The notes under the pieces are model-generated. The model made no database searches, had not been told where the DNA came from, and was given only the letters and a program-made list of their open reading frames with translations. 64,000 nucleotides of DNA from Clostridia bacterium (GTDB lineage: Bacteria; Bacillota; Clostridia; Christensenellales; Christensenellaceae), in the NCBI GenBank assembly GCA_014805015.1, contig JAAUYQ010000093.1:62001-126000 (forward strand). The letters run 5' to 3'. The translations under genes were made by a program, and so were the position numbers. Below, piece by piece: positions 7,034 to 15,604 of this stretch (positions are counted from its first letter, which is position 1; every line of letters begins with the position of its first letter).

Positions 7034-8086
7034 TCACAAAACGATCAGGTCTTTGGGGAACGTGTAGAGACTGCCGATTCCGGCCACGCACGTATCTTCA
7101 ATACGGACGCCGCCAAGGCCTTCCACATAGATGCCCGGTTCGATTGTGAACACGTTTCCCTCTGCGATCACAGCCTTGGAGGCGGCACTGATCAGCGGCA
7201 GCTCATGGATCTGCAGGCCAACGCCGTGTCCGGTCGCGTGCCCGAAGTTCTCCGCATACCCTTTTTTCTGGATGAACCGGCGGGCCGCGCTGTCAACCTT
7301 GGCAGCGCTGATTCCGATCTCAGCCGTGTCCAAAGCCCGTTTCTGCGCTTGTTCCACTATATCATAGATGGTTTTCAATTTAGCGTCAACGCGGCCGATT
7401 GCAAAGGTCCGCGTGATATCACTGCAGTAGCCCTGGAAGCGGCAGCCGAAATCGAGAGTCAGCATATCGCCCTCCTGCAGCTTATACGACGTGGTTGTCG
7501 CGTGCGGGATGGCACTGTTCGGTCCGCCGGCCACTATCGGTTCGAAGGCGCTGTCCATGCCCCGGATGCTCATTTCATAGTAGAGACGGGCGCGGATATC
7601 GAATTCGGAGACTCCGGTGCCGATATGCGGCAGCACAGCCTCGAGAACCTCTTCTGTTGCCCTGCAGGCTGTAGCAATCAGGTCGATCTCTTGCTGCGTC
7701 TTGACAGATCGCAGCTCAAGCAGCATTTCCGAGATATCCACGAAGCTGTGCACGCCGAGCTCATTTTTGAGACGGCCGAAATCAGCGACTGTGATGTAGT
7801 CTTCCTCGATCCCGAGCAGAACAGGCCGGTCGGCATACAGCGCATCCCGGATGGCTGGATAGCGTTCTTCCCTTGTCGTCACCTGCACGGCAACGTCGGG
7901 GCCGACGTCTTTTTTCGCCTGCTCTGCGTAGCGCGAATCTGTGAAAAGCTGTGCGCCGCGGGCAGTCACAAGCACCTGGGAATCGTGACCGCTGAAACCG
8001 GTCACATAGCGCACGTTGTCAGGTGAGCAGATCAGATAGTCTTCCGCCGTTCCCTGCGCCAGGATATTTGACACCACTGCGTTCAT
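7034..8086 (-). CDS. M24 family metallopeptidase (Xaa-Pro aminopeptidase-like)
   Basis: About 350 residues. An N-terminal creatinase-like domain (1-120) precedes the pita-bread domain with all metal ligands visible: the two Asp in [18 protein letters not shown], the His in [14 protein letters not shown] and the two Glu in [11 protein letters not shown] and GGVRIEDT. It cleaves N-terminal residues before proline and sits upstream of efp as in many Firmicutes. The ATG at 8086 is chosen; a TTG one codon earlier is also in frame. Its start codon is the ATGA at the edge of an IscB-type element scar, so the native ribosome-binding site has been replaced. Confidence 0.92.
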
Positions 8087-8240
8087 CAACTCGCGGCAAG
8101 GAGACTCCCGCCTCCTTAAGGCGGGGGAGGAATTGCCGCCTGCCTCCTTATGTCAGAGCAGTCTCCATCCTCCAGTATGAACGACGTTCCGCAGCTTGGA
8201 GACAGCATTGCTCCTGCCGCCCGGTTCGCGCGGTTGTCCA
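8087..8240 (-). mobile_element. IscB/HEARO-type element 3'-end remnant upstream of the M24 peptidase gene
   Basis: Minus strand: AAGGAGG (8143-8149), three bases, GCGGCAA, inner hairpin CCCGCCT/AGGCGGG, TTGCCGC (outer arms 8133-8139 and 8093-8099), six bases, ATGA. Upstream, about 90 bases can be read in broken frames as the end of an IscB-type protein: RNVVHTGGWRLL resembles the family's C-terminal RLLQ-ADGY-Y block, and RQFLPRLKEAGVSLPR follows through the hairpin. No N-terminal part or RNA scaffold is recognisable. Identity rests on the shared end structure with the better preserved copy at 14985-15493. Confidence 0.65.
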
Positions 8241-14450: not shown

Positions 14451-14984
14451 TCAGACCTCCTCCAGGATGATGTTGTCGTTCGTGAACACACAGATCTCGC
14501 TTGCAATCTCGAGTCCTTTGCGAGCAATCTCACGAGCCGGCAGGTCTGTGTTCTTGACCAGCGCCCTCGCCGCAGCCAGAGCGTAGGTTCCGCCGGATCC
14601 GATCGCGCAGACGCCGTCTTCCGGCTCTATGATCTCCCCGGTTCCGGACACAATCAGCAGGTTGTCCGCATCCGCCGCGATCAGCATTGCTTCCAGGCGG
14701 CGCATGGCTTTGTCCATCCGCCACTGCTGCACCAGCTCCACCGTAGCCCGCAAAAGGCTGCCGCCAAATTCCTCGAGCTTTTCCTCTAGGCGCTCCGAGA
14801 GAGCAAACGCATCGGCAACGGAACCGGCAAATCCGATCACGACAGTATCATTATATATCCGCCGGACTTTGTGTGCGTTCGCTTTCATGATGGTCTGTTC
14901 CCCGAGCGTGACCTGCCCGTCCCCGGCAATCACGCACTGCCCGTCCCGGCGCACAGCGAGTATGGTTGTTCCTTTCAGCTTCAT
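14451..14984 (-). CDS. hslV: ATP-dependent protease proteolytic subunit HslV
   Basis: 177 residues, proteasome-beta-like. The catalytic threonine would be exposed by removing MKLKG to leave TTILAV, and [23 protein letters not shown] is the family block. [16 protein letters not shown] is a second conserved stretch. It forms the HslUV protease with the gene directly downstream. The start codon ATGAAG directly abuts an IscB-type element end: AAAGGAGG lies upstream of a hairpin and only six bases separate hairpin and ATG, so initiation probably depends on that structure. Confidence 0.96.
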
Positions 14985-14990
14985 TTGCTT

Positions 14991-15040
14991 GCGGGATGGA
15001 TACTCGTGACTTCAGTCATGAGAGGAAATCCCGCACCTCC
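14991..15040 (-). repeat. Terminal hairpin of the IscB-type element, copy at hslV
   Basis: Outer stem GCGGGAT/ATCCCGC (15028-15034 and 14991-14997) encloses an eight-bp inner stem with a four-base loop (15003-15022). GGAGG (15036-15040), preceded by AAA, sits one base before the outer stem; six bases separate the stem from ATGA at 14984. The same plan occurs at 8093-8149, 41014-41068 and 15500-15546, with different inner loops but compensating arms. Confidence 0.8.
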
Positions 15041-15240
15041 TTTGCTTGCAGATATCCTCTTGGTTCCTCCAGGAGTCTGAGCTTCTTGCACATGACACCA
15101 TCTGTGACTTTCTTCCACTAGAATGCCTTCAGAGCGAATGAGCCTGTCGTGCGCCGCCCCGAAGCATTCTTCCGACCTTCCCGTACCGTTCTGTCGGTAT
15201 GAGAGGCTTTCCGTCTTTGTTCAGTACATAGACCAGGTAA
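15036..15240 (-). pseudogene. iscB/isrB-like remnant (N- and C-terminal fragments joined by a deletion)
   Basis: One frame reads VYVLNKDGKPLIPTERYGKV then GRMLRGG before a stop at about 15125. This matches the N terminus of IscB/IsrB proteins, whose PLMP domain has the form YVLN-DGKPLMPT---KVRRLL. The start codon appears mutated (CTG in place of ATG). About ten bases later another frame reads CKKLRLLEEPRGYLQ then EVRDFLS, resembling the family C terminus just before the end hairpin. The RuvC and HNH regions between are gone, so IscB and IsrB cannot be told apart. Confidence 0.7.
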
Positions 15241-15493
15241 GTAAGTCTCCTCGCGGAGTAGCGCAGCCATCGCCAGGGATGTTCCGGGGCTTAGTGCATA
15301 CAGCACTGTCCCTACCCATCAGGACTGTTTAACCATATGCCGCAGAGCTCCGGACTCGGCTGCAGATCCAAAGATGCCTGTTTCCCGGATGACGACGCAG
15401 CCATCTCTGCCCCGACCAATCACGTACCGGCTGACTGAGGCTCGTCAAGTACGGGCTTTTTCAAGCCCGTGACTTCAGATGTGGGTGCTTGAC
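15241..15493 (-). ncRNA. HEARO/omegaRNA-like structured RNA region
   Basis: The 250 bases directly upstream of the IscB-like start have no ORF with protein-like features and several nested helices. GTCAAG/CTTGAC (15488-15493 with 15444-15449) encloses ACGGGCT/AGCCCGT (15464-15470 with 15451-15457). Further in, CAGCC can pair with GGCTG around a purine-rich loop that includes GTGATTGGTCGGGGC. Location, size and this motif-rich purine segment are as expected for HEARO, the guide-RNA scaffold of IscB systems. Assignment is by position and memory of the class; no covariance search was run. In a decayed element it may no longer be expressed. Confidence 0.6.
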
Positions 15494-15604
15494 TCGGATG
15501 CGGCCTCGGGACTCCCGCATCCGGCGGGTGAGGAAACCGCTCCTCCTCACGTTTGTCTGGCTCCATCCGCCTTCAGGCGGATTCCTTTGCGTCGGCCTGC
15601 CTGC
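15494..15604 (-). mobile_element. Older IscB-type 3'-end remnant directly after trmFO
   Basis: Minus strand, starting at the trmFO stop: a frame reading KGIRLKADGARQT resembles the RLLQKADGYGYT C-terminal block of IscB-type proteins. Then come GAGGAGG, one base, GCGG, an inner CCCGC/GCGGG hairpin, CCGC (outer arms 15537-15540 and 15500-15503), six bases and GTCA, one base from the GTGA alternative target. The next element's RNA-like region starts exactly there. The outer stem is only four bp, so this copy is more decayed. Confidence 0.55.

Follow-up and report, generated by a model that had tools for sequence, protein, structure and literature searches.

An IscB element that is decayed and internally deleted ends directly in front of the start codon of hslV, and its right end carries a Shine-Dalgarno (SD) sequence and a hairpin that together would provide this gene with a new ribosome-binding site. 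The reading we favour, at a probability of roughly three in four, is that of a start-codon-docked IscB element with a replacement split ribosome-binding site in its right end, which has been kept by the host. With somewhat less assurance, we think it likely that the ends of a large group of IscB/HEARO elements evolved as portable split ribosome-binding sites, allowing insertion at start codons without silencing, and that bare ends have been kept permanently at dozens of genes, including normally essential ones.

The element lies on the minus strand of the window, which is the whole 64,000 nt stretch of DNA analysed, and the limits given for it in the original prediction, 15493 to 14985, are exact to the base. 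It consists, in order, of a HEARO RNA, a remnant of the IscB N-terminus, a remnant of the 3′-end of iscB, a strong hairpin and the spacer AAGCAA, and ATGAAG follows (Table 1). The predicted HEARO RNA was confirmed by a match to RF02033 at 15493-15258 that covers model positions 1-211, the full model, and scores 95.9 bits (E 2.3e-18 over the whole window; gathering score 83 bits). It is the sole gathering-level Rfam match within the 64 kb window. In IscB systems the left flank of the element serves as the guide of the omega RNA. By eye, the left flank at 15498-15542 (minus strand) appeared to be an older decayed right end before the hslV start, a candidate that scores only 7.6 bits with the hairpin model described below.

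Table 1. Features of the IscB element and its surroundings in the window.
Feature	Position	Strand	Remarks
Left flank	15494..15510	-	Directly 5′ of HEARO; putative omega RNA guide, should transcription of the copy occur
HEARO (omega) RNA	15258..15493	-	Full length, several pairs decayed
iscB 5′-end remnant	15153..15236	-	LVYVLNKDGKPLIPTERYGKV...; ATG changed to CTG
Deletion junction	15153..15163	-	11 nt matching both flanking parts of full-length copies
iscB 3′-end remnant	15035..15162	-	With stop and frame shift
Shine-Dalgarno	15035..15043	-	AAAGGAGGT; foot of right-end hairpin
Right-end hairpin	14991..15034	-	Outer stem GCGGGAT/ATCCCGC and inner stem
Spacer	14985..14990	-	AAGCAA, 6 nt; element end
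hslV	14451..14984	-	Start codon ATGAAG is the right flank of the element
Second IscB-type right end	8093..8139	-	C4 subfamily, with SD; whole feature 8086-8152

The genome (2.70 Mb in 102 contigs) contains 15 HEARO matches and several IscB frames, and a search for the Y1 transposase gave two matches elsewhere in the genome. The full-length IscB copies that had been supposed to exist outside the window are present on contigs C25 and C35, where a HEARO RNA lies directly upstream of an open reading frame with a PLMP-type N-terminus, RRXRR/RuvC and HNH (Pfam RRXRR 3.8e-63 and HNH 1e-07 for the full-length protein). The VYVLNKDGKPLIPTERYGKV frame of the window copy is clearly similar to the N-terminus of full-length IscB from the same genome (MVYVLNKDRKPLMPTERHGKV, L029/L030), so that the PLMP-type fragment was correctly recognised. 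Because the intact relatives carry an HNH domain, which an IsrB nuclease lacks, the element is an IscB, and of the "IscB/IsrB" originally proposed only the first part stands. It shares with the HEARO/IscB elements of the IS200/IS605 superfamily (OMEGA) the HEARO RNA, the PLMP-type N-terminus, the terminal hairpin and the ATGA-type flank, with RRXRR and HNH found in the full-length relatives, but differs from them in having no nuclease core; an N-terminal remnant is all that it retains of the protein.

Over the 5′ 341 nt, the window copy is 88% identical to the copies in C61 and C35/C25, and its 3′ 185 nt are 94% identical to C25/C35, which identifies the short C-terminal-like frame as the 3′-end of iscB. 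Approximately 1 kb of iscB is missing between these two parts, the RNA and the ends being kept, and the 11 nt at the join that match both parts are as would be expected if the deletion took place between two short repeats. Since the core is deleted and the start codon lost, the copy was classed, as originally proposed, as a non-autonomous derivative, of a known kind. The CTG start, broken frame and deleted core leave it dead as a gene, and therefore any activity must come in trans; IscB or TnpA would then act in trans on the deleted copies. Stand-alone omega RNAs used in trans were reportedly described by Altae-Tran and colleagues in 2021. A further deletion copy of the same design, belonging to the C4-type subfamily, was found at C9:37328-37987. 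In its internal deletion and the retention of both ends, the window copy resembles MITE-like non-autonomous IS derivatives, from which the family departs in that many other copies retain the right end only.

The predicted terminal hairpin, six bases from an ATGA, was borne out, and it was overlooked that this ATGA is the first codon of hslV, as were the SD at the foot of the hairpin and the recurrence of this layout throughout the family. The ATGAAG of hslV is preceded, in order, by the strong SD AAAGGAGGT, the covarying hairpin and the 6 nt spacer, and both the identity and the start of the gene are supported by the NCBIfam HslV profile (2e-80), with residue 2 aligned to profile position 4. 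The SD and AUG are 51 nt apart in the linear sequence and 7 nt apart with the hairpin looped out. In the flank comparison, each copy shows the hairpin followed by 6 nt and ATGAA, and the genes behind the copies compared are hslV in the window, rapZ in C35, murG in C83 and rplI in C36 (a diverged copy). In the C4 IscB subfamily the stem sequence is different and the layout of the right end is the same. The second right end in the window, with ∼96 nt of the element left, is of this type and stands before a creatinase-type peptidase gene, 6 nt from its ATG at 8086. An earlier reading of the window copy as a lone decayed element was abandoned because right ends recur at gene starts.

A covariance model was built on 21 hairpin cores taken from various genomes and phage contigs; the SD and the start codon were excluded. 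Both stems covary, with 85% of cells paired and 98 double changes compared with 33 in shuffles, though the 21 cores were picked by eye, so that these first counts lean to structure, and the later genome-wide matches were unpicked. No comparable covariation was seen when the alignment was slid out of its true register. The covariation could reflect a DNA hairpin used in transposition rather than a role of the RNA. This hairpin-only model detected 47 right ends in the genome, which fall into three classes. In class A (41 ends) an SD precedes the hairpin and ATGA or GTGA usually follows after 6 nt. In 37 of the 41 the SD motif lies no more than 14 nt from the hairpin (background 2.6% per 14 nt), and [AG]TG[AG] lies 5-9 nt past the stem, nearly always at 6, in 36. 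The distance from SD to start is 49-67 nt in the linear sequence and 5-10 nt when collapsed, within the 5-11 nt taken as the criterion for a hairpin-bridged, or split, ribosome-binding site. Class B, a separate right-end family, comprises five ends (L282, L283, L286, L288 and L291, in contigs C29, C95, C15, C18 and C50) with the sequence tggatcattctataga then GGCGCAATTCC..., which lack an SD and are flanked by GTTGAA or GTGGAA, and is a natural internal control for the SD-bearing ends. The only class C member is a TTCATC-type end near a tnpA/tnpB pair, with neither SD nor ATG. ATGA/GTGA integration sites are said to have been noted by Weinberg and colleagues in 2009, when HEARO was first described. 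Two right ends, L280 (C61:13117) and L285 (C35:5943), appear to abut TTGA start codons, which suggests that the flank is NTGA and not ATGA or GTGA only. The ATGAAG flank also fits the NWRRN-type TAMs of IscBs that have been studied (PMC13180657).

The length of the open reading frame after ATGA proved a weak indicator of a start codon, as 36% of random ATGA sites in this GC-rich genome open frames of at least 80 codons (31% at 60 codons or more for loci outside the genome). Start codons were therefore assigned from protein profiles, with downstream proteins scanned against NCBIfam and Pfam and a gene start accepted where the alignment begins at or near the N-terminus. At least 16 right ends lie at gene starts by this measure, namely those for Pth, RapZ, MurG, HslV, RlmH, ribosomal protein L9 (rplI), Ddl, DeoC, a low-molecular-weight phosphatase (LMW-PTP), a NIF3-like protein, CdsA, an ACT protein, OMP decarboxylase (pyrF), an aldo/keto reductase (AKR), the creatinase-type peptidase and an IMP cyclohydrolase-like protein. 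Several of these genes are normally essential. By comparison, the window has 577 ATGA sites, of which no more than ∼11% would be gene starts even if all of its ∼65 genes began with ATGA. About seven copies in class A lie away from gene starts. Two of these fall inside genes (an araC-like gene, as judged from the frame, and the gene of an aldo/keto reductase), an identical pair precedes a frame of 13 codons, and a few others have no gene behind them. The copies lacking an SD are among those without a gene behind (Fisher p 0.002, on a hand classification with small numbers).

The copies form an erosion series from full length (C25, C35, C4 and C11) through internal deletions (the window copy, C9:37942 and C49:181899) to 19 copies in which only the right end, approximately the last 50-110 nt or less, is recognisable. 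Other subfamilies, and not old C4 copies, may be the source of some of the diverged ends; the argument drawn from these ends depends on the absence of the remaining element and not on age. The spacer varies in sequence among them and is 6 nt long in most. The SD is present in 18 of the 19, though it formed no part of the search model, and this bears on an alternative, that these are ordinary decayed HEARO/IscB copies whose target motif is ATGA by coincidence. Start codons may then be enriched only through the loss or lethality of insertions within genes, and the purine-rich stretch would be element sequence, either iscB or a transposase recognition site, with no part in translation. Such purging is to be expected, two copies do sit inside genes, and in C25/C35 the frame on the iscB strand continues through the purine-rich stretch. 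However, in C4 and C11 the SD is located past the iscB stop, families with other flanks have ends without an SD, and no second SD was found in the 50 nt upstream of the starts of the genes with these ends. Taken with the retention of the SD in the right-end-only copies, this makes the ordinary-copy explanation unlikely.

The frames upstream offer a different explanation, in which ribosomes terminating iscB or an upstream gene close to or at the ATGA would reinitiate at the AUG next to it, with the SD and hairpin secondary. At L029, L030, L059, L064 and L095 the iscB-strand frame stops at a TGA that overlaps or touches the ATGA of the target, and in these cases translation of the host gene may be coupled to that of iscB. 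However, no upstream frame reaches the AUG in the window copy or in the right-end-only copies, and the C4 iscB stops before the hairpin, so that coupling is quite improbable as the general explanation. The C85 copy is an example. Its upstream gene, which from the sequence we take to be uppS, stops 51 nt short of the hairpin, and cdsA begins 6 nt beyond, which leaves cdsA without any other obvious ribosome-binding site.

In several C4-type ends the SD is predicted to pair with a CCTCC within the hairpin, in competition with the outer stem. This pairing would make a translational switch possible, and the hairpins in general might be read mainly as regulatory switches, with the SD paired in one state and free in the other, or as terminator-like elements that control the gene behind them. 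However, the predicted fold of the window copy leaves both the SD and the AUG free (0.92 and 0.90), no T-run follows the hairpin, and the genes concerned share no common pathway. We consider this the least probable of the explanations, by a little.

The same layout was found in other genomes and in phage contigs, using loci from genomes of the phylum, GTDB and IMG/VR; the scan of GTDB was made with one protein and gave five relatives. Among 77 distinct ends outside the genome that are not of the TTCATC type, 55 carry the SD motif and 22 do not, and NTG[AG] is located shortly past the stem in 73. Their mean anti-SD energy is -8.1 kcal/mol, against -5.0 kcal/mol for shuffled flanks. Eight TTCATC ends outside the genome mostly lack both the SD motif and NTG[AG]. 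N-terminal domain matches were obtained for downstream proteins such as threonyl-tRNA synthetase (thrS), an FMN reductase (starting at residue 1) and a Mur ligase interpreted as MurC (murC). The DNA of the window element had no match in 60 relatives, and a search of the genus returned only this genome. For this reason hslV leaders were compared in place of an empty site that shares the left flank, and in several related genera the leader has no insert and in some carries an ordinary SD.

The preferred reading, the docked element with its replacement ribosome-binding site, would operate as follows. IscB elements of this type adjoin NTGA, mostly ATGA or GTGA, and most of the insertions seen are at start codons. 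An element would insert precisely 5′ of a start codon, leaving the interrupted gene with its own, and its right end would bring a split ribosome-binding site, with the SD at the foot of the hairpin and the 3′ foot some 6-9 nt from the AUG. Looping out of the hairpin would place SD and AUG 5-10 nt apart. Because the gene keeps its start codon and gains an SD, the insertion would be nearly harmless. We infer that ribosomes bridging the hairpin make use of the SD and that insertion is tolerated for this reason. The remaining element would then erode, probably leaving the right end as the ribosome-binding site of the gene.

SDs bridged by structure are functional in phage T4 genes 38 and 25, in which destabilising mutations reduce initiation (PMC3014915). 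There, as in the window copy, structure between SD and AUG gives a working spacing, the change being from 22 to 5 nt and from 27 to 11 nt in T4 and from 51 to 7 nt here. However, the T4 sites are fixed leaders of their genes, whereas those of this genome belong to a mobile element whose end recurs before dozens of unrelated genes. IStrons (PMC4227781) are likewise derived from insertion sequences and spare the host gene the harm of their insertion, but they are removed from the RNA by group I intron splicing, whereas here nothing is removed and a ribosome-binding site would be supplied. The right end, with SD and hairpin at a start codon, seems to be the new part of an element that as an object is of a known kind. 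No description of start-codon docking by IscB with a built-in ribosome-binding site was found in the literature searched, though earlier mention in Altae-Tran 2021, Weinberg 2009 or Kapitonov 2016 is possible. If correct, the favoured reading would give a concrete reason for the spread of IscB in small, gene-dense genomes, in that the element enters a gene at the only position at which a short leader can repair the damage, and carries that leader itself. It would be a translational counterpart of IStron splicing, would imply that a transposon end can be the ribosome-binding site of a core gene, and would put portable split ribosome-binding sites on offer.

Two further observations were made on members of the family. 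At the right ends L264, L266, L272, L284 and L294, the outer stem can be replaced by a pairing of the SD within the hairpin, a possible translational switch. In two other genomes of the class, G062 and G172 (L056, L059, L064, L070, L075 and L080), HEARO RNAs likewise outnumber IscB genes, which points to additional non-autonomous copies.
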